Virus record (IMG/VR): IMGVR_UViG_3300042696_000086
Span: 1-31,113 of that record
Direction: 5' to 3' (one strand)
Length of the DNA stretch: 31,113 nucleotides
Source: a virus
Shown here: positions 5,791 through 30,575 of the stretch, piece by piece
Numbering within the stretch: the first letter of the stretch is position 1
How the letters are laid out: every line of letters starts with the position of its first letter
Program-made: the position numbers and the translations under genes
Notes under the pieces: generated by a model
Seen by the model: the letters and a program-made list of their open reading frames with translations, nothing else
What the model was told of the DNA's origin: nothing
Database searches by the model: none

Positions 5791-6075
5791 TCAGGTGGTC
5801 TTCTGCACCGCGGCCTGCGCGGCCCGGTACGCCTGCGGATTCGCACGCCGCTTCCCCGAGGCGACCGCACGCGCGTCATGCACCCGCGAGTCGTTGATCG
5901 GGGACGGCGTGGTCCACGCGCCGGCCGGATAGCCCGGGCCGGGCACCGGCTTGTCCCGGCCGGCGAGCGCCCACGGGGAGTGGGCGTCGCACTTCCATCC
6001 GGTGACGTAGAAGCGGAGTTCGCCGTCGTGGGCGCCGAGGGTGGCGTCGCAGGGCTGCGGGGTTCGGCTGCTCAT
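5791..6075 (-). CDS. Hypothetical protein coupled to the WhiB/HNH fusion
   Basis: This 94-aa protein starts with ATG at 6075, overlapping the upstream stop as ATGA. It begins M-S-S-R-T-P-Q-P-C-D-A-T-L and has a second cysteine in W-K-C-D-A-H. A Pro/Gly-rich middle follows, then a basic, Ala-rich end (S-G-K-R-R-A-N-P-Q-A-Y-R-A-A-Q-A-A-V). It has no membrane segment. The two Cys and one or two His could bind a metal, but the spacing is not a known ribbon. Function unknown. Confidence 0.75.
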   Translation of the reverse strand: MSSRTPQPCDATLGAHDGELRFYVTGWKCDAHSPWALAGRDKPVPGPGYPAGAWTTPSPINDSRVHDARAVASGKRRANPQAYRAAQAAVQKTT

Positions 6076-6611
6076 GCCGCGGCCTGCTTTTCGGCCTGCT
6101 TCTCGGCGAGCTCCCGCATCCACCGATCCGTCAGACACCCCTGCGCGACACAGCCCTCAACGCCACACGACCGCTTCACATGACCGATCGGATCCACCCC
6201 GTAGAACGCCACCCACGCGATCCGGTGCACCGTGTACGGAGTGCCGCGCACGTTGATCCACTGACGGTCGTCCGTCCACACCATGTGGCCACCCTCAGCG
6301 GGTTCGACGTGCTGCCGGTACAGGTTCCGCAGCAGCACCGCGGTGGTCTCCAGCGCCTCGACGACCGCGCCGGCGACCTTCCCGTCCGCCTTACGCAGGT
6401 ATGCGTTGCGCTGCCGCGGCGTGGTGCCCGCGCGGATGCTCCACTCATCGCCCTCGACGTAGGCCGCGGTCAGGCAGGCGGTGCGCACCAGGCACGTGTT
6501 GCAGATGCCGCGGGCCTCTTGCACGGCCTTCGGTTCGCGTTCTCCGGCGTAGAACAGGTCGCCGTCCTTGCCGGCGCAGGCGGCCTTGCGGCGCCAGTTG
6601 TTGGGGTTCAT
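6072..6611 (-). CDS. WhiB-like iron-sulfur regulator fused to an HNH-like domain
   Basis: This 179-aa protein starts with ATG at 6611. Residues 5-75 form a WhiB-like domain with Cys12, Cys37, Cys40 and Cys46 in the family's C-x(n)-CxxC-x5-C arrangement, which holds a 4Fe-4S cluster. The usual G-[VI]-x-G-G turn is replaced by S-I-R-A-G-T-T, followed by a basic stretch. WhiB-like proteins bind the primary sigma factor and tune transcription; phage members such as that of mycobacteriophage TM4 affect host septation and superinfection. Residues 108-162 resemble HNH-type domains: V-W-T, H-R-I-A-W near 129, then C-G-V-E-G-C-V-A-Q-G-C. The expected catalytic histidines are not all clear, so this part may be a binding module only. 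ATGA overlaps join it to neighbours on both sides. Confidence 0.8.
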   Translation of the reverse strand: MNPNNWRRKAACAGKDGDLFYAGEREPKAVQEARGICNTCLVRTACLTAAYVEGDEWSIRAGTTPRQRNAYLRKADGKVAGAVVEALETTAVLLRNLYRQHVEPAEGGHMVWTDDRQWINVRGTPYTVHRIAWVAFYGVDPIGHVKRSCGVEGCVAQGCLTDRWMRELAEKQAEKQAAA

Positions 6612-8642: not shown

Positions 8643-9376
8643 GACTGCTCACTCCCGCGCTGCGCCGGGATCAGCGGCCACTCCGGGCGCACCGTCTCCG
8701 CGAGGTGCTGCTTGCCGGGCGTCTTCGCGAAGTACTCCCGCAGCCCTTCCGCCTGCTCCGCCGCCCACTTGATTTGCGCGTGGTGCAGCTCCTCCAGGTC
8801 CATCGCGGCCAACTCCGGCCGCGTCGCGCCGAGCCGCCACGCGACCCGGGCCGCGGCAATCGCGTCGGCCGCCGAGTCGTGCGCACCGTCGAGCTTGACC
8901 TTGTAGTGCTCGCACAGCGCGGTCAGCGTGCGGGACCCACGCCGGTAGCGGTCCACCTTCTTGTCGATGACGAACGGGTCGATCACCGGCCAGATCACGT
9001 TGTCGATGTACCGGTCGACGAGCGTGTGGAGGCCGTGGCGTCGGCACTCGCGGTCGAGGACTGTGAGGTCGTAGCGGGCGTTCATCGCCACGATCGGGAT
9101 GCCGTGCTGGAGGACCTGCCCGAGGGCCGCGGTGATCTCCTCGACGACCTCGGCGGCCGGGCGGCCCTCGGCGCGCGCCCGTTCGGTGCTGTAGCCGTGG
9201 ATCTTTGCGGCCTCTTCGGGGATCTCCACGCCCGGGTCGGCGACCCAGGTGGCCGGTTGCGGAGGCTGGCCGCCGCCGACCTGGACGATGCAGGCGGTGA
9301 CGATGCGGGCCTCTTCCGGGTTGGCGGCAGTGGTCTCCAGGTCGAAGGCCGCCATGCGCTTGAGGTGCCAGCTCAT
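8639..9376 (-). CDS. DnaQ-like DEDDh 3'-5' exonuclease
   Basis: This 245-aa protein has the DEDDh exonuclease motifs in order: D12-L-E14-T-T (Exo I), N99-A-R-Y-D103-L (Exo II), and H166-D-S-A-A-D171 (Exo III). These residues bind the two metal ions that remove nucleotides from 3' ends. DnaQ-like proteins proofread for a polymerase or trim recombination intermediates. No polymerase gene is in this window, so the partner may be the host's or lie to the left. The C-terminal 60 residues are helical and charged. ATG 9376 overlaps the stop of the RDF gene as ATGA. Confidence 0.9.
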   Translation of the reverse strand: MSWHLKRMAAFDLETTAANPEEARIVTACIVQVGGGQPPQPATWVADPGVEIPEEAAKIHGYSTERARAEGRPAAEVVEEITAALGQVLQHGIPIVAMNARYDLTVLDRECRRHGLHTLVDRYIDNVIWPVIDPFVIDKKVDRYRRGSRTLTALCEHYKVKLDGAHDSAADAIAAARVAWRLGATRPELAAMDLEELHHAQIKWAAEQAEGLREYFAKTPGKQHLAETVRPEWPLIPAQRGSEQS

Positions 9377-10482
9377 CGGACCTCACCCGCCTTCACCGCG
9401 GCGAGGTAGGCGTTCATCTGCGCGACCGACCCGGACGACGGGTGCGTGCCACCGTTCAACTTGGCGAACCCCGCCTCCACCTGCTCGGCCGTCAGACCGT
9501 GCTGGCCGGCCGCGGCGATGATCTGGAACCACACGGCCTGCACGTCGGCCGGGTCGTCGTCGACTACCTCCGCGTCGTACACGCCCTCCGAATCCGGCAC
9601 CGGCGCAGACGCCGCCTGGCTGGGCGTGGCCTCGGGCTTCGTCTTGGCCGGGGCACCAAGCTCCGCGGCCCGCGCGGTCAGCGCATCCGCGATCGCCTTG
9701 TTCATGTGCCCCGCAGCCACGGCCTGCTCGTACAACTCCCGCACCGCAGCCGGCGTCTTGGCCACCGCGGCGAGCCGCAAGTAGTCCGGCCGCGGCGCCT
9801 CGATCGCAGCCCGCTGCGGACCAGACGCGACCGCCGTGCCCACCGAGGCGGCCCCCGCCATCAGCGCGGCCGGCGTCACAGCAAGGTCGATCGTCGGAAC
9901 CATCCAGTGCCGGGTCTGCCCGTCCCGCTTCGCGGTGCGCTGCTCCAGCCCGAGGAACGCCTCGACGTAGCCGCCCGTCTGCGCCAGGAGCTCGGCGACG
10001 CCCGGAAGTTCGAGTGCGGCGTAGTAGCCGTGGGACTCCAGCCGCCACACCCCGACGCCCTCGATCTCCGAGAGGACGACGTTGAGGCGAGTGGTGGGCT
10101 TGCACTGCCGCTGCTCGGGGTCCGGGCCGCAGATGCACGGCCGGTCCTTCAGCAGCTCGGTGACGCCGTCGCAGCGACGCTGGCAGCCACCTCCCGACCA
10201 CAGTTCGAAGTACTGGGAGACGGGCTGCGGCGGCACGTGGATCGGCATGCGCTTGGCGTCGGTGATGACCTCGTACTGGCCGGCGCCGCCGTCCGGGGTC
10301 CACTCCTGGACGGTGCCGCCGTACTTTGCGGCGACGCGGTCAAGGAGTTCCTTCGACGGGGAGGTCAAGCGGAACCGGTCCAGCTTCGCCGGGCGGCTGC
10401 CGCCCTTGGCGGTGGCGACCTTCTGGCCGATGCGGATGCGGCCCAGCTCACGGAGCCGCTGCTGCAGGGTCAGGATGGGCAT
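9373..10482 (-). CDS. Recombination directionality factor (phiC31 gp3 type)
   Basis: This 369-aa protein resembles the RDF family of phiC31 and phiBT1, which binds the serine integrase and switches it from integration to attL x attR excision. Shared traits, from memory of the family, include the opening L-Q-Q-R-L-R-E-L-G-R-I-R-I-G (6-19), P-A-K-L-D-R-F-R-L-T (31-40), S-Q-Y-F-E-L-W-S-G-G-G-C-Q-R-R-C-D-G (89-106) and W-R-L-E-S-H-G-Y-Y-A (146-155). Cys100, Cys104, Cys116, Cys118 and Cys127 could bind zinc. It is longer than phiC31 gp3; the extra C-terminal segment after about 245 is Ala-rich and helical. A serine integrase and candidate attP lie at 15603-17087, giving a complete switch set. TGATG couples it to the nuclease upstream. 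Confidence 0.85.
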   Translation of the reverse strand: MPILTLQQRLRELGRIRIGQKVATAKGGSRPAKLDRFRLTSPSKELLDRVAAKYGGTVQEWTPDGGAGQYEVITDAKRMPIHVPPQPVSQYFELWSGGGCQRRCDGVTELLKDRPCICGPDPEQRQCKPTTRLNVVLSEIEGVGVWRLESHGYYAALELPGVAELLAQTGGYVEAFLGLEQRTAKRDGQTRHWMVPTIDLAVTPAALMAGAASVGTAVASGPQRAAIEAPRPDYLRLAAVAKTPAAVRELYEQAVAAGHMNKAIADALTARAAELGAPAKTKPEATPSQAASAPVPDSEGVYDAEVVDDDPADVQAVWFQIIAAAGQHGLTAEQVEAGFAKLNGGTHPSSGSVAQMNAYLAAVKAGEVR

Positions 10483-14422: not shown

Positions 14423-14694
14423 GCGTCCACCTCATGCAATGGATCTGCCTTGCGGTGTTGCACCGCTTGGATGGAGAGAGCATTGCATAGCGTGGACGCA
14501 ATGTCCACGGGCTTGGATGGTTGCGTGAGAAATTCGCCAAACAGGCCGGACGCCCTGGCGCCCGCTGTCCATTTGCGTGGACACTCTGTGCAGCGCGTGG
14601 ACCACAGGGACCCGCGCCACCAGGAGGTATCCGCCGCATACCTCACTGGTCACGTGGACACCCCACGGCCCACGAGACGAACCGGAGTGGCATG
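14423..14694. promoter_or_regulatory. Divergent switch region with CGTGGACA-type operator sites
   Basis: The 272 bases between the divergent XRE genes hold several copies of GTGGAC/GTCCAC: 14425-14430, 14492-14497 with 14503-14508 (an inverted pair), 14577-14582, 14597-14602 and 14654-14659, plus a TGTCCA at 14566-14571. All but the first of the full sites are flanked as CGTGGAC. There is also GCGGTG-ttg-CACCGC (14452-14466), ATGCAAT paired with ATTGCAT (14434-14440, 14482-14488), and GAGGTAT paired with ATACCTC (14624-14644). This density of inverted repeats between two HTH genes is typical of a phage lysis-lysogeny switch. I cannot assign -35/-10 boxes with confidence. Confidence 0.65.
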
Positions 14695-15105
14695 ATGACC
14701 GTCATGGCAGCGCGAGATCCCAGAGCGGCCGGCGAGCGGACCCAGCTCCGCGACATCGTCGTCCAGCGCAAAGAGGAGTTGGCCCTGGGCTACCAGAGGC
14801 TCGCAGCACGCTGCATCGACCCCGAAAGCGGCGAGCAGACCATCAAGTCCAGCTGGCTGCACCGTCTTGCGACCGGCGAGCCCGTCGAGGCGCCGTCGTA
14901 CGAGATGCTGCGGGGCATGGCGGCCGGGCTCGACGTGCCGGTGAGTGTGCTTCAGGATGCGTCGTCGGCACAGTTCTTCGGGGCGAGCAAGGTCTTCAGT
15001 GATTCGGCCGAGGGTCAGGCATTCCTGGAGGACGCGGATCGGCTGACTCCTGCTCAGCGTGAGGCCATTCGGGCGTTGATGCGCTCGATGTCTGACGGGC
15101 AGTAA
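14695..15105 (+). CDS. XRE-like transcriptional regulator, candidate immunity repressor
   Basis: This 136-aa rightward protein starts at ATG 14695, seven bases after GGAG; an adjacent ATG at 14692 is also possible. Residues 20-80 look like an HTH of the XRE type, with L-A-A-R-C-I then S-W-L-H-R-L-A-T-G-E and Y-E-M-L-R-G-M-A-A-G-L-D-V-P-V as the last helices. The C-terminal half is acidic with a final helix L-T-P-A-Q-R-E-A-I-R-A-L-M-R-S-M, which may dimerise. Being divergent from the early operon and just upstream of the integrase, it is the best candidate for the lysogeny repressor. No protease-cleavage domain is present. Confidence 0.75.
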   Translation: MTVMAARDPRAAGERTQLRDIVVQRKEELALGYQRLAARCIDPESGEQTIKSSWLHRLATGEPVEAPSYEMLRGMAAGLDVPVSVLQDASSAQFFGASKVFSDSAEGQAFLEDADRLTPAQREAIRALMRSMSDGQ

Positions 15106-15309: not shown

Positions 15310-15576
15310 ATGCCGGAAGACTGCAAGAGCAACACCCGCAAGACCGTTCGGGCGCAGATCGTCTTCAGTGACGAACTGCCCAACGGCTTCCCACCCTTTG
15401 AGATCCCCGATGGCCACATGATGATGGAACTGGAGCTGACCGACCGCACCTGCATCGTTATCCGCCCGGGCGCCATGGACCGCGCCCTGTTCGACGAATG
15501 GAACAGGTACCTCGACCGCGTCACCAGTCAGGGCAACTGGTCCCGTGACCCGTCCCGCGGACAGCCCTCATCATAG
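15310..15576 (+). CDS. Hypothetical protein upstream of the integrase
   Basis: This 88-aa protein starts with ATG 15310 after a weak GGGGG; no better start exists in this frame. It begins M-P-E-D-C-K-S-N-T-R-K-T-V-R-A-Q. Two short strand-like segments follow (H-M-M-M-E-L-E-L-T and C-I-V-I-R-P-G) and then a helix (F-D-E-W-N-R-Y-L-D-R-V). It ends 26 bases before the candidate attP. Genes in this spot can encode repressor cofactors or excision accessory proteins, but no motif points to either. The RDF-like protein lies elsewhere. Confidence 0.65.
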   Translation: MPEDCKSNTRKTVRAQIVFSDELPNGFPPFEIPDGHMMMELELTDRTCIVIRPGAMDRALFDEWNRYLDRVTSQGNWSRDPSRGQPSS

Positions 15577-15602: not shown

Positions 15603-15658
15603 TAAGGGTGGGTTACGCGGACCTTCGGACTACCGAAAGTCTGCGGAACCCACCCTTA
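15603..15658. other. Candidate attP (serine integrase attachment site)
   Basis: A 56-base imperfect inverted repeat ends 19 bases before the integrase ATG. The left arm (15603-15628) starts TAAGGGTGGGTT and ends GGACCTTCGG. The right arm (15633-15658) is its complement at 23 of 26 positions. The 4-base centre is ACTA, so the central dinucleotide would be CT (15630-15631), non-palindromic as expected for directional serine integrases. Large serine integrases use attP sites of roughly 50 bp with imperfect inverted symmetry, commonly next to int. A transcription-control hairpin is the alternative. Confidence 0.7.
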
Positions 15659-15677: not shown

Positions 15678-17087
15678 ATGCGCCACGATCCCGCAGACCC
15701 GCAACTCGCCTGCATCTACTGTCGCATGAGCGAAGACCGCGAAGGCGGCGGCCTCGGCGTCGAGAGGCAACGCGAGGACTGCGAACAGCTTGCCCAACAG
15801 CTCGGCCTCACCGTCGCCCGCGTCTACGCCGACAACGACCTCTCCGCATACTCCGGCAAACCCCGGCCCGAATACCAGCAGATGCTCGACGACCTCCGCG
15901 CAGGCATGTACGGCACCGTCCTCGCCTGGCACACCGACCGCCTCCACCGGCGCCCCGCCGAACTGGAGGAGTACATCGACGTCTGCGAACCCCGCGGCAT
16001 CGCCACCCGTACCGTCCAGGCCGGGGCCATCGACCTCACCACCGCCGCCGGGCGGCTCATGGCCCGCCAGCTCGGCAGCATGGCCCGCTACGAAGTGGAG
16101 CACATGATCGAGCGGCAGAAACGGGCCCGCGAGCAGAAGGTGCAGCGCGGCGAGTACTGCGGCGGCATGCGCCCCTACGGCTGGGAAAAGGACGGCACCA
16201 CCCCCGTCCCCAAGGAGATCGCCGTCATCCGTGAAGCCGCCGAGACCATCCTCGCCGGCGGCTCCGTCCGAGCCCTCGCCGCCGACCTCAACGCACGCGG
16301 CCTCCACAGCAGCACCGGCGCCCGCTGGGACGGCAGCACCCTACGCCGCATGCTCATGCGTCCCCGCAACGCGGGCATCCTCCAGCACCGCGGCCAGGAA
16401 GCCGGACCCGCACAGTGGGACGGCGCCCTCGACGAGCCGACCTGGCGAAGCCTGCGGGCCGTCCTCGACGACCCTTCCCGCATCCCCACACGGTCCAACG
16501 TGCGCAAGCACCTCGGCTCCGGGCTCTACCTGTGCGGGGTGTGCGGCGAGACCCTCACCTCGTTCTCCAAGGGCTCCGGACATCCGGCCAAGTACAAGTG
16601 CCGCAAGAACGACTGCGTCCTGCGGGACCTCGTGATGCTGGACAAGTGGGTCGTCCTGCACTTGCTGAAGCGCCTCGGTCAGCCGGATGCCGCCGAGGTG
16701 TTCGCCCGCACGGATGATGGCGGCCCGGACCTGGGGGCGGCACAGGCTGCGCTGGAGGAGGCACGCAAGGGCCTGGACGAGCTGGCGGCGGCGTTCGGTG
16801 CGGGGGAGATCGACATGCAGGAGTGGCGGATCGCCAGGTCCAGCCTGCGCGCGCGCAAGGAGGCGGCCGAGGGGGTGCTGTCGTCGGCGGTGCGGGTGAA
16901 CCCAGTGGCCGAGCTGCTGCAGGCCGACGACATAGTGGCCGCCTGGGAGGGCTGGGATCTGGCGCGGCAGCGTGCGGCGGTGGACTGGGCGATGACGGTG
17001 CGGGTGCTTCCGGCGAAGGTGGGGCGCCGTCCGGGTGGCGCCTACTGGGATCCCGATGCGGTGGAGATCGTGTTCCGGCGGAAGTAA
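15678..17087 (+). CDS. int: Large serine recombinase / phage integrase
   Basis: This 469-aa protein is a large serine integrase that would join attP and the host attB by double-strand cleavage through a serine-DNA bond. Residues 10-155 form the resolvase-like domain, with A-C-I-Y-C-R-M-S18-E-D carrying the nucleophile Ser18 and a W-H-T-D-R-L-H-R-R stretch with active-site-type arginines. The recombinase domain spans about 160-270. The zinc ribbon has Cys286, Cys289, Cys308 and Cys313, and a coiled coil (about 352-402) is inserted before the final beta segment, as in the phiC31 class. It is shorter than phiC31 integrase. ATG 15678 is needed to keep the catalytic N-terminus, though no Shine-Dalgarno is visible. 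A terminator follows at 17087. Confidence 0.95.
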   Translation: MRHDPADPQLACIYCRMSEDREGGGLGVERQREDCEQLAQQLGLTVARVYADNDLSAYSGKPRPEYQQMLDDLRAGMYGTVLAWHTDRLHRRPAELEEYIDVCEPRGIATRTVQAGAIDLTTAAGRLMARQLGSMARYEVEHMIERQKRAREQKVQRGEYCGGMRPYGWEKDGTTPVPKEIAVIREAAETILAGGSVRALAADLNARGLHSSTGARWDGSTLRRMLMRPRNAGILQHRGQEAGPAQWDGALDEPTWRSLRAVLDDPSRIPTRSNVRKHLGSGLYLCGVCGETLTSFSKGSGHPAKYKCRKNDCVLRDLVMLDKWVVLHLLKRLGQPDAAEVFARTDDGGPDLGAAQAALEEARKGLDELAAAFGAGEIDMQEWRIARSSLRARKEAAEGVLSSAVRVNPVAELLQADDIVAAWEGWDLARQRAAVDWAMTVRVLPAKVGRRPGGAYWDPDAVEIVFRRK

Positions 17088-17316: not shown

Positions 17317-17547
17317 GTGCCGTCCGCGCCTCCGCCCGCATGGGTCCTCGCCCGGCGCCAGGCCGTCGGCACCAACATCCGCACCGCCCGGCGAGCGTGT
17401 GGCCTGTCCCAAGAACGCCTCGCCGAACTAGCCGGCATGGACCGGCAGGCAATCAACCGCATCGAGCAGGGCCACCAGTCGCCGATCCTCGACAACCTGA
17501 TCCGTATCGCCGACGCGCTCGGGGTGCCGCTCGCAGAGTTGGTGTGA
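17317..17547 (+). CDS. Small XRE-family helix-turn-helix protein
   Basis: This 76-aa protein starts with GTG 17317 after AGGGTGG. Residues 16-75 are a textbook XRE domain: G-T-N-I-R-T-A-R-R-A-C-G-L-S-Q-E-R-L-A-E-L-A-G, then R-Q-A-I-N-R-I-E-Q-G-H-Q-S-P and L-D-N-L-I-R-I-A-D-A-L-G-V-P. It has no other domain, so it probably acts as a simple dimeric repressor. Similar stand-alone XRE proteins are abundant in Streptomyces chromosomes. It is flanked by hairpins at 17087-17120 and 17548-17583, so it forms its own transcription unit. Confidence 0.9.
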   Translation: MPSAPPPAWVLARRQAVGTNIRTARRACGLSQERLAELAGMDRQAINRIEQGHQSPILDNLIRIADALGVPLAELV

Positions 17548-18151: not shown

Positions 18152-19420
18152 TCACGCGGCGAGCAGCCCAAGCTTCACCGCGAGCTCCGACGCACGACGC
18201 CGGCGGGCCGGGCTTTTCGCCTCGGTCTCCTCCAGCACGATCCGCTTGGCGTACCCGTTGTACTTGATGGTCTCCGGGGCGGCCTCGTGTGCCTGCGCGA
18301 GCGTGGCGAGGGCGACGTCCGGCTGCCCGTCGAGCTGGTAGCCGCGAGCCTCCTCGATGCGGTGCCGTGCCCGGCGCGGCCGGGACGGGATGACCAGGGC
18401 GTCCGCGGCGGCTGCCTGCCGCACGGACTCGCCGCCCTGGTGCAACTCGACGGCGACGGTCACTGCGTGGGCGCCCATGATGGCCTGCGAGAAGCTGGTG
18501 ATCGGGTGGTAGTAGTCGGCGGGTAGCCGGTCGGCCATGCTGCGGGCCTGGTCCCAGTACCGCCAGGCGGTGCCCGTCTCGCCGCGGCGGGCCGCGGTGT
18601 ACCCGGCCTCGAAGGTGAGTGCACCCGCGATGGCCAGCACGTCGTCCGTGGCGTCCGGCAGTAGGGGTTCGAGGAAGGCGATGGTCTCCAGGTTCACTGC
18701 GTCGGCCGCGTCGAAGTGCGCGGGCCCTGCGTCGCGGTGTGCCTGCGCGGCCAGCCACGCGGCGACGCCGATGGCGTGCGGGTCCTCGGATTCCTGGGCG
18801 GCGATCAGACCCCGGTCGGCGACGCGCCACAGCAGCGCGGGGTCGGGCTGGTAGGCGCAGAAGAACTGGGCGAGGGAGTACACCTCCGCGAGGATCGCGT
18901 GCGCGGCGCGGCGCTCGGGCCCGGTGTTGGCCTGACGCACGCCAGCCTGGGCGTCGCGGATCAGATCCGGCAGGAGTTCGCCGATGACCTCGCGGTGGTT
19001 GGGTGCGCTGTGGCGGGCCGCCCAGGCGCGGGCGAGTCGTGCGCGCAGGTGTGCTGATGGGGGTGCGGGCCGTTGGGCGGTGAGGGGGAACGCGTCGACG
19101 GCTGCTTTGACTTCGGGGAGGCGTGGGTGGCCCGGTCCGGTGAAGAGGTCGACGTGCACGGACTGGTCCCCTGTGAGGTCGGAGAGGTCCCGGACGCGGA
19201 GGATCTCGGCGAGGCGGAGGACGACTTCGAGCTTCGGGGTCTTCAGGCGTCCGGTTTCGATGCCCTTGACCCAGGAGCCGGATCGTCCTGCGAGGCCGCC
19301 GAGTTGGTCGCGGGTGAGGCCCTTGCGGGTGCGGAGGATCTGCAGTCGTTGGCCGAAGACCATGGGGTCGGCGTAGGGGTCCGGGGTAGCATCAGAAGGC
19401 GACAGGGCCTTGCCTCTCAC
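18152..19420 (-). CDS. XRE regulator with long helical (TPR-like) C-terminal region
   Basis: This large leftward regulator has an XRE domain in V-F-G-Q-R-L-Q-I-L-R-T-R-K-G-L-T-R-D-Q-L plus G-L-A-G-R-S-G-S-W-V-K-G-I-E-T-G-R. About 330 residues of Ala-rich helices follow, with the A-x-x-A/Y spacing of tetratricopeptide repeats. Streptomyces has many such XRE-TPR proteins, which sense a ligand or partner through the helical part. The start is uncertain. I chose GTG 19420; ATG 19498 would add a stretch with poor codon bias, and ATG 19363 would leave only a few residues before the HTH. No Shine-Dalgarno is visible at any of them; a TACTCT at 19443-19448 could be the -10 for a short leader. Likely host-derived. 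Confidence 0.85.
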   Translation of the reverse strand: MRGKALSPSDATPDPYADPMVFGQRLQILRTRKGLTRDQLGGLAGRSGSWVKGIETGRLKTPKLEVVLRLAEILRVRDLSDLTGDQSVHVDLFTGPGHPRLPEVKAAVDAFPLTAQRPAPPSAHLRARLARAWAARHSAPNHREVIGELLPDLIRDAQAGVRQANTGPERRAAHAILAEVYSLAQFFCAYQPDPALLWRVADRGLIAAQESEDPHAIGVAAWLAAQAHRDAGPAHFDAADAVNLETIAFLEPLLPDATDDVLAIAGALTFEAGYTAARRGETGTAWRYWDQARSMADRLPADYYHPITSFSQAIMGAHAVTVAVELHQGGESVRQAAAADALVIPSRPRRARHRIEEARGYQLDGQPDVALATLAQAHEAAPETIKYNGYAKRIVLEETEAKSPARRRRASELAVKLGLLAA

Positions 19421-19521
19421 TCTGTACAGCGTCCACTGCCCAGAGTAGGAGGCGGGGCCTGTTTCGTGTGAGGGGTTGGGGTTGGCCGCAACCGGCATGA
19501 GTGATTCGAGGCCCTGATCGA

Positions 19522-28063: not shown

Positions 28064-28203
28064 ACACTGCCGTCACCATCACCGCGATCATCGCCGCGCT
28101 CCTCCTCGCCCTCGCCATCGTCAACGCCATCCGCGACACCGCCAAAGCCAAACACCAGCCCCAGCAATGCAACGGCTGCACCTGCCACAAGGAGGGGACG
28201 TGA
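28060..28203 (+). CDS. Tiny single-pass membrane protein with Cys tail (47 aa)
   Basis: This 47-aa protein starts with GTG 28060 after GGGAG (GTGA overlap). Residues 3-26 are a membrane helix (A-V-T-I-T-A-I-I-A-A-L-L-L-A-L-A-I-V), followed by a basic segment and C-N-G-C-T-C-H-K. The CxxCxCH could bind a metal on the cytoplasmic face. It is coupled to the HNH-AP2 gene by GTGA. Confidence 0.65.
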   Translation: MNTAVTITAIIAALLLALAIVNAIRDTAKAKHQPQQCNGCTCHKEGT

Positions 28204-28697
28204 CCGCACAACCGGAAGTCCTGAATCTCCCCGGCGGAAGCACCGCGCTCATCGACCCCGGCGACGTCGACCTCGTCAGCGGATACCACTGGCGCGTCCT
28301 CGAACTCGACGCCCTCACCTACGTACATGCCTGGGACGGCCCCAGACACCTCTACCTCCACCGCCTCATAGCTGCGCCACCCCTAGGGATGGTCGTCGAC
28401 CACCGCGACGGCAACGGCCTCAACAACCAGCGCAGCAATCTACGCGTTGCCACCCACTCGCAGAACAGCGCCAACGCCGGACCCAACCGGCGGAAGGCGG
28501 GAAAGACGTCAGCGTACAAGGGCGTCTGCTTCGATCGTGGCCGCGGCCTGTGGGCAGCCACGATCCACCACCAAGGGAAGACGCGGGCACTAGGGCGGTA
28601 CGCGAGCGAGATTGACGCAGCCGCCGCCTACGACAAGGCCGCGCTCGGAATCTGGGGCGAGTTCGCCCACCTCAACCTGGCACAGGAGCGACGGTGA
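28200..28697 (+). CDS. HNH-AP2 homing endonuclease-like protein
   Basis: This 165-aa protein starts with GTG 28200 after AAGGAGG. Residues 50-95 are an HNH nuclease with H54-R-L-I, V-V-D67-H68-R-D-G-N and N76 in L-N-N-Q-R-S-N-L-R-V-A-T. Residues 103-158 form an AP2 DNA-binding domain: S-A-Y-K-G-V, W-A-A-T-I, L-G-R-Y-A-S-E-I-D-A-A-A-A-Y-D-K-A-A-L, ending F-A-H-L-N. HNH-AP2 proteins are mobile endonucleases that copy themselves into allelic sites. Tight coupling (GTGA at both ends) means it integrated without breaking the operon. Confidence 0.9.
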   Translation: MTAQPEVLNLPGGSTALIDPGDVDLVSGYHWRVLELDALTYVHAWDGPRHLYLHRLIAAPPLGMVVDHRDGNGLNNQRSNLRVATHSQNSANAGPNRRKAGKTSAYKGVCFDRGRGLWAATIHHQGKTRALGRYASEIDAAAAYDKAALGIWGEFAHLNLAQERR

Positions 28698-29770
28698 ACC
28701 AGCAGAGCATCGCTCCCATCCACCCGGCCCACACCATCCCCGCCGCCCTACGTGGCCCCGACTGGCGCGACCCCTTCGAAGGCATCCCAGTCCCCAAGGT
28801 CTTCGCATGGGCCGCTGACAACGCAGGTTGCGGATGGTATCGGGCCCAGATGCCGATGGAAGCCCTCGCCGCCCTCGGCCGCACCACCCACTACGGCACG
28901 CGGCTCCCCCGCCCGGTCCGCCACCAACGCGACACCATCATCGTCGGCCAACGCGTCTGCGACCCCGACCCATCCTCGATGTGGCAGCAGCTCGCCGTCG
29001 AAGGCCGCCACCTCATCTACGAAGTCGACGACGACCTCTTCAACATCGACCACCGCTCACCGGCCGCCCACCACTACTACGCACGCCCCGACGTCCGCGA
29101 CAACATCCGCCGCAACATCCAAGTCGCCGCCGCCGTCACCGTCACCACCGAACCCCTCGCCGAGATCGTCGCCCAGTGGAACCCCAACGTCCACGTCATC
29201 CCCAACGCCGTCCCCGACTGGCTCACCGACCACCAGCCCCCGCAGCGTGACGACGGCACCCTCACCATCGGCTGGGGCGGCTCCGCCACCCACCAAATGG
29301 ACTGGGATCACAGCGGACAACACATCCGCCGCTTCCTCCAACGCAACCCCCAAACCGAGTTGCACTGCATCGGCAACGACTACGGCGCCCTCCTCCGCGC
29401 ACCCCGCCGCCGAGTCACGCCATGGCAGCACAGCGTCGAGGACTACTACCGCGTCGTCGACTACACCATCGGCGTCTGCCCCCTCATGCCACACATCTTC
29501 AACCTCGCCAAGAGCCCCGTGAAAGCCACCGAATGCGCGGCCCTCGGCATCCCCGTCGTCGCCTCCGCAGTCCGCCCCTACGAAGACTTCGTGCAGCACG
29601 GCGTCACCGGCTACCTCGTCCACCGCGACCACGAATGGGCCCACTATCTCCGCGCCCTCACCAACGAGCCAGCCATGCGGCAGGAGATGGGCCGCGCGGC
29701 CCGCGAGCACGCCCGCCAGTACACGATCAGCCGGCTCGCCCCGGCCTGGGAGAAAGCGATCCTCGGATGA
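28694..29770 (+). CDS. GT4-type glycosyltransferase
   Basis: This 358-aa protein starts with GTG 28694 after AGGAG. It has a GT-B architecture: an N-terminal domain with W-A-A-D-N-A-G-C-G-W-Y-R (39-50) and Y-E-V-D-D-D (109-114), then I-P-N-A-V-P-D-W-L (169-177). The C-terminal sugar-nucleotide domain has L-T-I-G-W-G-G-S (190-197), D-Y-T-I-G-V-C-P-L (256-264), and K-S-P-V-K-A-T-E-C-A-A-L-G-I-P-V-V-A-S (273-291), the position of the family's conserved Glu. It probably transfers a sugar from a nucleotide donor to a virion protein, phage DNA base or host glycan. The acceptor cannot be told. Codon use is typical of the surroundings. Confidence 0.85.
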   Translation: MNQQSIAPIHPAHTIPAALRGPDWRDPFEGIPVPKVFAWAADNAGCGWYRAQMPMEALAALGRTTHYGTRLPRPVRHQRDTIIVGQRVCDPDPSSMWQQLAVEGRHLIYEVDDDLFNIDHRSPAAHHYYARPDVRDNIRRNIQVAAAVTVTTEPLAEIVAQWNPNVHVIPNAVPDWLTDHQPPQRDDGTLTIGWGGSATHQMDWDHSGQHIRRFLQRNPQTELHCIGNDYGALLRAPRRRVTPWQHSVEDYYRVVDYTIGVCPLMPHIFNLAKSPVKATECAALGIPVVASAVRPYEDFVQHGVTGYLVHRDHEWAHYLRALTNEPAMRQEMGRAAREHARQYTISRLAPAWEKAILG

Positions 29771-29889
29771 TCTGCCGCCAGTGCGCCGACGCCGCAGACC
29801 AAGGCCTGCCACCCGGCGCCCACTGCAACAACCCGGGCTGCTCCTGCGGCCACCGCGCCCCCACCCGGACGGAGGGCGCCCCGTGCTGA
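29767..29889 (+). CDS. Cys-rich mini-protein (40 aa)
   Basis: This 40-aa protein starts with ATG 29767 (ATGA overlap). It begins M-I-C-R-Q-C-A-D-A-A-D-Q-G, then G-A-H-C-N-N-P-G-C-S-C-G-H and a final C. Six cysteines and two histidines in 40 residues make a compact zinc-binding fold very likely. It lies between the two glycosyltransferase genes and overlaps the start of the second by seven bases. It may be a partner or chaperone of these enzymes, but that is only inferred from position. Confidence 0.65.
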   Translation: MICRQCADAADQGLPPGAHCNNPGCSCGHRAPTRTEGAPC

Positions 29890-30575
29890 CGATCCTCGTC
29901 CCCACCCGCGGCCGGCCCGCGAACCTCGCCCGCCTGTGGAAGGCATTCCTCGACACCTGCGAGTACGAGACCCGGCTCGTCGCGCTCGTCGACAGCGACG
30001 ACCCCGAACTCCGCGGCTACCAGGACCTGTACAAGGAGCTGCGGGACGAGCCGATGTTCCGCATGGGCATCGGCCCCCGCCTCCGCCTCGGCCCCACCCT
30101 GAACGTCGCCGCACCCAAGTGGGCGGCCCGCTCCGACGCGGTCGGCTTCATGGGCGACGATCACCTGCCGCGCACCGTCGGCTGGGACGGCCGCTACCTC
30201 ACCACGCTGAAGAACCTCGGCACCGGCCTGGTGTACGGCAACGACCTCATCCAAGGGCAGGCGTTGCCGACGCAGGTGGCGATGAGCTCGGACATCATCC
30301 TCGCGACCGGCCACATGGTGCCGGTTGGGCTGATCCACCTCTACGCCGACAATGCGTGGCTCGCCCTCGGCCAGGCCCTCAACTCGATCGTCTACCTGCC
30401 CGAGGTGACGGTCGAGCACCTGCACCCGATCGCTGGCCGAGCTCAGTGGGATGCGGGCTACGCGGAGGCGAACACCGACGCCCGGTCGGATGCGGACCGG
30501 AAGGTGTTCGAGCGGTGGCGGGAGCACGAGCTGCCGACCTGGGTGCAGCAGATCAAGGAGTACCACCGTGACTGA
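29883..30575 (+). CDS. GT2-type glycosyltransferase-like protein
   Basis: This 230-aa protein starts with GTG 29883 after GGAGG. It opens V-L-T-I-L-V-P-T-R-G-R-P-A-N-L, the first strand of a GT-A fold. D37-S-D-D and the G91-D-D-H motif in V-G-F-M-G-D-D-H-L-P could be the nucleotide/metal-binding acidic pairs. The remainder has Y-G-N-D-L-I and W-x-L-x-L-G segments seen in small phage GT2-like proteins. With the GT4 gene just upstream, two steps of glycan building are possible. Catalytic function is likely but the donor and acceptor are unknown. Confidence 0.75.
   Translation: MLTILVPTRGRPANLARLWKAFLDTCEYETRLVALVDSDDPELRGYQDLYKELRDEPMFRMGIGPRLRLGPTLNVAAPKWAARSDAVGFMGDDHLPRTVGWDGRYLTTLKNLGTGLVYGNDLIQGQALPTQVAMSSDIILATGHMVPVGLIHLYADNAWLALGQALNSIVYLPEVTVEHLHPIAGRAQWDAGYAEANTDARSDADRKVFERWREHELPTWVQQIKEYHRD

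Follow-up and report, generated by a model that had tools for sequence, protein, structure and literature searches.

A predicted attachment site beside the serine integrase of a Streptomyces-type phage and its probable target in a nucleobase permease gene

The viral DNA considered here, a stretch of 31,113 nucleotides referred to in full as the window, carries a long imperfect palindrome directly in front of a serine integrase gene (int), which raises the questions of whether this repeat is the phage attachment site (attP) and, if so, which chromosomal site (attB) it recombines with. Repeat detection returned two arms of 26 nucleotides separated by the four nucleotides ACTA, with 23 of the 26 arm positions paired (88% complementary), and thereby reproduced exactly the repeat of the original prediction, which had read it as an attP with a CT core. 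With 46 of its 56 positions self-complementary, the element is the top-scoring 56-mer in the window, where the runner-up reaches 38, and the best palindromic 56-mer across 30 dinucleotide Markov shuffles of the window scored 40. From the base composition, the number of arm pairs with at least 23 of 26 matches expected in the window is 1e-5 at a four-nucleotide spacer and 2e-4 over 21 spacer lengths. The element has the general make-up of a serine-integrase attP, namely an imperfect inverted repeat of about 45-56 bp, a non-palindromic central dinucleotide and a position adjoining int, with 19 bp between the end of the repeat and the ATG start codon (Table 1).

The predicted placement just upstream of a serine integrase was confirmed by family matches, as the product of the downstream gene matches phrog_95 integrase (E 5e-97), PF00239 (E 4e-30) and PF07508 (E 4e-12). 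Its N-terminal resolvase domain carries the catalytic serine within YCRMSED and aligns to 3g13, and the CxxC...CxxxxC pattern of a zinc ribbon appears in the translation as CGVC...CRKNDC. The nearest solved structures are integrase and recombinase chains, the best of them being PDB 9iu2 (residues 26-400, E 1e-14), an entry titled only Integrase which we take to be the Bxb1 enzyme and which, despite being the best structural match, is a distant homologue. No integrase of a sequenced phage exceeds about 40% identity to that of the window, and the closest enzymes, from Mycobacterium phage Kumao (38%) and Streptomyces phage phiScoe3 (36%), are too distant for common att sites to be deduced from them.

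Table 1. Coordinates, strand and supporting evidence for the attachment site, its parts and the neighbouring genes in the window.
Feature	Position	Strand	Evidence
attP, 56-bp imperfect palindrome	15603..15658	.	Repeat detection, palindrome score and alignment with the attPs of relatives; lysogens of relatives with attL/attR
Crossover dinucleotide CT, non-palindromic, fixing orientation	15630..15631	+	Central in 17/17 attPs; inside the CTGCCGA interval of S. ossamyceticus attL/attR; exact cut predicted from symmetry
P arm, predicted to go to attR	15603..15628	.	Counterpart is the phage portion of attR in G001 C379 and G002 C20
P' arm, predicted to remain beside int in attL	15633..15658	.	Counterpart is the phage portion of attL in L003, L004 and L063
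P-arm outer conserved block, positions 17-24 from the centre (mirror image 15647-15654)	15607..15614	.	Predicted zinc-ribbon-domain contact
Large serine integrase, 469 aa, with resolvase domain, recombinase domain and Cys4 zinc ribbon	15678..17087	+	Family profiles and structure matches
Conserved 88-aa ORF, candidate directionality factor or other integrase partner	15310..15576	+	26 bp from attP; co-occurrence; function predicted
Repressor-like regulator	14695..15105	+	phrog_12831 transcriptional repressor, E 6e-8; beside attP in 9/9 relatives compared
XRE-type HTH protein downstream of int, alternative directionality factor or regulator candidate	17317..17547	+	PF01381; in 9/10 relatives compared
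phiC31 gp3-like protein of an RDF-like family, alternative directionality factor candidate	9373..10482	-	PF18897

Conservation of the element was assessed across a scan of viral contigs, which returned 18 integrases at 71-80% identity to that of the window. The same palindrome stands 17-19 bp before int in all 16 contigs that include upstream DNA (integrases 74-80% identical), and CT is at its centre in each of these and in the window. Counted from the centre, most of positions 3-7 and 15-28 show strong mirror symmetry across the 13 distinct attPs, but symmetry is weak at positions 11-14, where Watson-Crick pairs form in only three to five of the 13. At these middle arm positions the window is more symmetric than its relatives, a feature that the attP model does not need. 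The two arms also co-vary, with double changes in 14 of the 26 mirror pairs, a level that none of 500 shuffles reached, and arms that change in concert are as expected of a site bound by two identical subunits. One contig (L017, ~9890-9960) carries two tandem copies of the P-arm outer block (TTAGAGGGGGGTCCCGTCAACC).

These comparisons bear on the possibility that the repeat acts mainly as an RNA hairpin in the int leader, whether as an attenuator, a terminator or a translation control. The RNA of the window repeat folds very stably (-54.7 kcal/mol, z -7). However, there is no U-tract and no terminator match at the repeat, and the middle of the arm is precisely where pairing is lost in most of the other attPs.

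More direct evidence comes from integrated relatives, since only the P' half stands beside int in three Streptomyces genomes whose integrases are 71-78% identical to that of the window: S. ossamyceticus (L003/G001, 78%), S. coelicoflavus (L004/G002, 71%) and G386 (L063, 71%). In all three the P' half is preceded by a truncated NCS1-type permease (PF02133) that stays in frame to a Gly-Leu-Pro, the arrangement of an attL. A PF02133 search recovered the missing C-terminal part of the permease on contig C379 of S. ossamyceticus and contig C20 of S. coelicoflavus, each time directly after the P half, as in an attR; in S. coelicoflavus, C20 is also the contig of int itself, and the prophage measures 52.9 kb. 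When the flanks were joined at CT, a single permease of 521 aa resulted, matching PF02133 end to end (E 6e-158) with CT on a conserved Leu codon, and the joined site aligned without gaps to an intact orthologue from another genome (95% over 1548 bp). In S. ossamyceticus, attP and attB differ at the base before CT and their identity stops after CTGCCGA, which confines the crossover to these 7 bp, within which the centre of symmetry picks out CT. The attP rebuilt from attL and attR of this genome is letter for letter the one found in an independent viral contig (L013). In G386, a genome search found neither the second permease half nor the 88-aa ORF of Table 1; its attL on contig C33 may belong to a decayed prophage or remnant, or may border an assembly gap.

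The parting of the half-sites into attL and attR on integration was thus observed in relatives of the window phage, and it contradicts both remaining accounts of the repeat. Lysogens split the palindrome at its centre, with each half joined to host DNA, and a hairpin or terminator as its main role is refuted by these junctions and considered very improbable, while a secondary regulatory role of the repeat RNA may exist. Another account would make the repeat an operator for a dimeric repressor instead of a recombination site, which its dyad symmetry beside two regulator genes (14695-15105 and 17317-17547) might suggest; but 56 bp is long for a single operator and half-site exchange in lysogens is a signature of recombination, leaving this the least credible of the accounts, with a negligible probability. 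The attP reading and the CT core of the original prediction were instead both borne out, the latter by its position at the symmetry centre and within the 7-bp crossover interval. The combined comparisons argue that 15603-15658 is almost certainly the attP of a temperate Streptomyces-type tailed phage with, by homology, an attB in the permease gene. The element is real and well resolved, yet ordinary in kind.

The chromosomal site was then followed in its unoccupied state. The Gly-Leu-Pro is kept in 30 of 30 intact permease orthologues, and the dinucleotide common to all 17 attPs is found at 29 of these 30 empty sites, where it forms the first two positions of the conserved Leu codon, at which synonymous change is rarest. 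The exception (L075, the orthologue of G020) has a TT core, and this empty site is predicted to be unusable by CT-core attPs. At a presence threshold of E <= 1e-120, the permease gene was found in 75 of 121 sampled Streptomyces genomes (~62%). Restoration of the C-terminus of the host gene by the P' arm was ruled out, as the permease is cut mid-gene (at codon 287 of 521) and L004 lacks a stop at this point, so that the in-frame stop of most attPs is not a repair. A shifted zinc-domain motif in attB, with agreement by eye at only 3-4 of the 9 positions, is not claimed. A search of the open-access literature found no serine integrase described with its attB in an NCS1 permease gene, which is weak evidence of novelty.

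The original prediction had proposed a search for a host attB with a matching core, and such a site was located in the permease gene for the relatives, while that of the window phage itself is assigned by homology. No lysogen of this phage turned up, and among the integrases whose attB has been mapped the nearest shares 78% identity with that of the window. The window phage likely has the same attB as its relatives, because integrases that target the permease are distributed over the whole clade to which its enzyme belongs. It could instead be that the repeat is an attP whose integrase uses some other attB, given that integrases at 53-58% identity in other Streptomyces are not beside the permease and specificity therefore changes with divergence. 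However, the permease-targeting L003, L004 and L063 are scattered over the tree of close-relative integrases (in which L064 was entered on the wrong strand and its placement is meaningless), L003 is at least as close to the window as L004 and L063 are, and the window attP retains the CT core and the CC..A flanks common to the permease site, so that a different attB appears improbable.

The state of the window itself can be read from the same relatives. Left of attP, 14521-15105 and 15310-15576 match the attR end of the S. coelicoflavus prophage, and right of it int, 17317-17547 and 18152-19498 match the attL end; no permease sequence was found in the 31-kb window. Flanks from opposite prophage ends, together with the lack of permease sequence, indicate that the window has the attP-bearing, unintegrated arrangement, as would be expected either before integration or after excision. 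With both arms intact, the unrecombined site of the original prediction is upheld; its free phage or circular form agrees with this gene order, but the record is only a linear, partial 31-kb fragment of such a form, compared with a prophage of ~53 kb in the relative. The open reading frames include primase-like, exonuclease, endolysin and tail-fibre genes, while those that were scanned contained no recognisable capsid or terminase gene. Elsewhere in the window, 28167-30575 holds an HNH endonuclease gene followed by two glycosyltransferase-like genes (phrog_7162 and phrog_14945), the latter of which also matches a DNA-methyltransferase family, and 6072-6611 on the minus strand encodes a small protein whose N-terminal part is WhiB-like and whose C-terminal part resembles HNH proteins (PHROGs matches at 3-90 and 95-157).

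A possible mechanism is that an integrase dimer binds the mirror-image arms, where its recombinase domains would contact the inner blocks and its zinc-ribbon domains the outer ones, an assignment that we infer from the conserved positions. Synapsis with the host attB would be followed by a cut at the central CT and exchange of half-sites, giving attL, beside int, and attR. By homology, attB would lie in a chromosomal NCS1-family nucleobase permease gene at the conserved Gly-Leu-Pro (GGN-CTN-CC), and integration would split this gene at about codon 287. The conserved blocks of the window attP agree in position with those of the A118 family of Listeria, in which attP is pseudo-palindromic and its 25-bp half-sites consist of an inner recombinase-domain block and an outer zinc-domain block with the ZD motif at 16-24 (PMC3783163), although the sequence and host are different and the zinc-domain contacts in the window are predicted only. 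Similarly, the attP of Streptomyces phage phiJoe is an imperfect inverted repeat of ~50 bp with a central crossover dinucleotide, located 18 bp upstream of a serine integrase (PMC5311408), a layout that is the same in the window at 19 bp, whereas the phiJoe core is GG instead of CT and its attB also differs.

Serine integrases need a recombination directionality factor (RDF) for excision, and that of phiJoe is encoded by a small gene next to int (PMC5311408). An independent scan recovered the 88-aa ORF left of attP from 18 viral contigs, which are exactly the 18 with a close integrase. Of 392 Streptomyces genomes only two contain it, S. ossamyceticus and S. coelicoflavus, both of which have both att halves and the ORF next to attR, and no INPHARED phage has it. 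The scan detects close relatives only, and a wider occurrence is possible. The protein showed no match in Pfam or PHROGs, and a fold search with a predicted model of only moderate confidence returned nothing significant, so that it resembles no known RDF in sequence or fold. Known RDFs are unrelated to each other, and a protein without such similarity may still be one. Its position and exclusive co-occurrence place the 88-aa ORF first among the RDF candidates, as adjacency singled out phiJoe gp52 (PMC5311408), from which it differs in lying on the other side of attP and in having no detectable match. That it represents a new RDF family dedicated to this integrase clade is a tentative proposal, plausible rather than probable. 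If true, RDF, attP and int would be neighbours in the phage form, and after integration the RDF gene would be found at the opposite end of the prophage, beside attR.

The phiC31 gp3-like gene was also considered and rejected as the common RDF of the clade, its family being missing from 9 of 11 searched records, while its product could serve as the RDF of the window phage alone. This gene sits in an exonuclease/DNA-polymerase-exonuclease cassette; phage mu1/6 has a stretch matching the region at 72% DNA identity, and contig C557 of S. ossamyceticus carries a cassette syntenic to that of the window.

These results outline a predicted complete integration system, consisting of integrase, attP, attB, core and candidate RDF, for a clade of Streptomyces phages. 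Orthogonal int/attP pairs of this sort find use as integrating vectors, and few RDFs have been validated. For the host, the predicted consequence of integration is loss of the NCS1 permease in lysogens, which would provide a testable phenotype.
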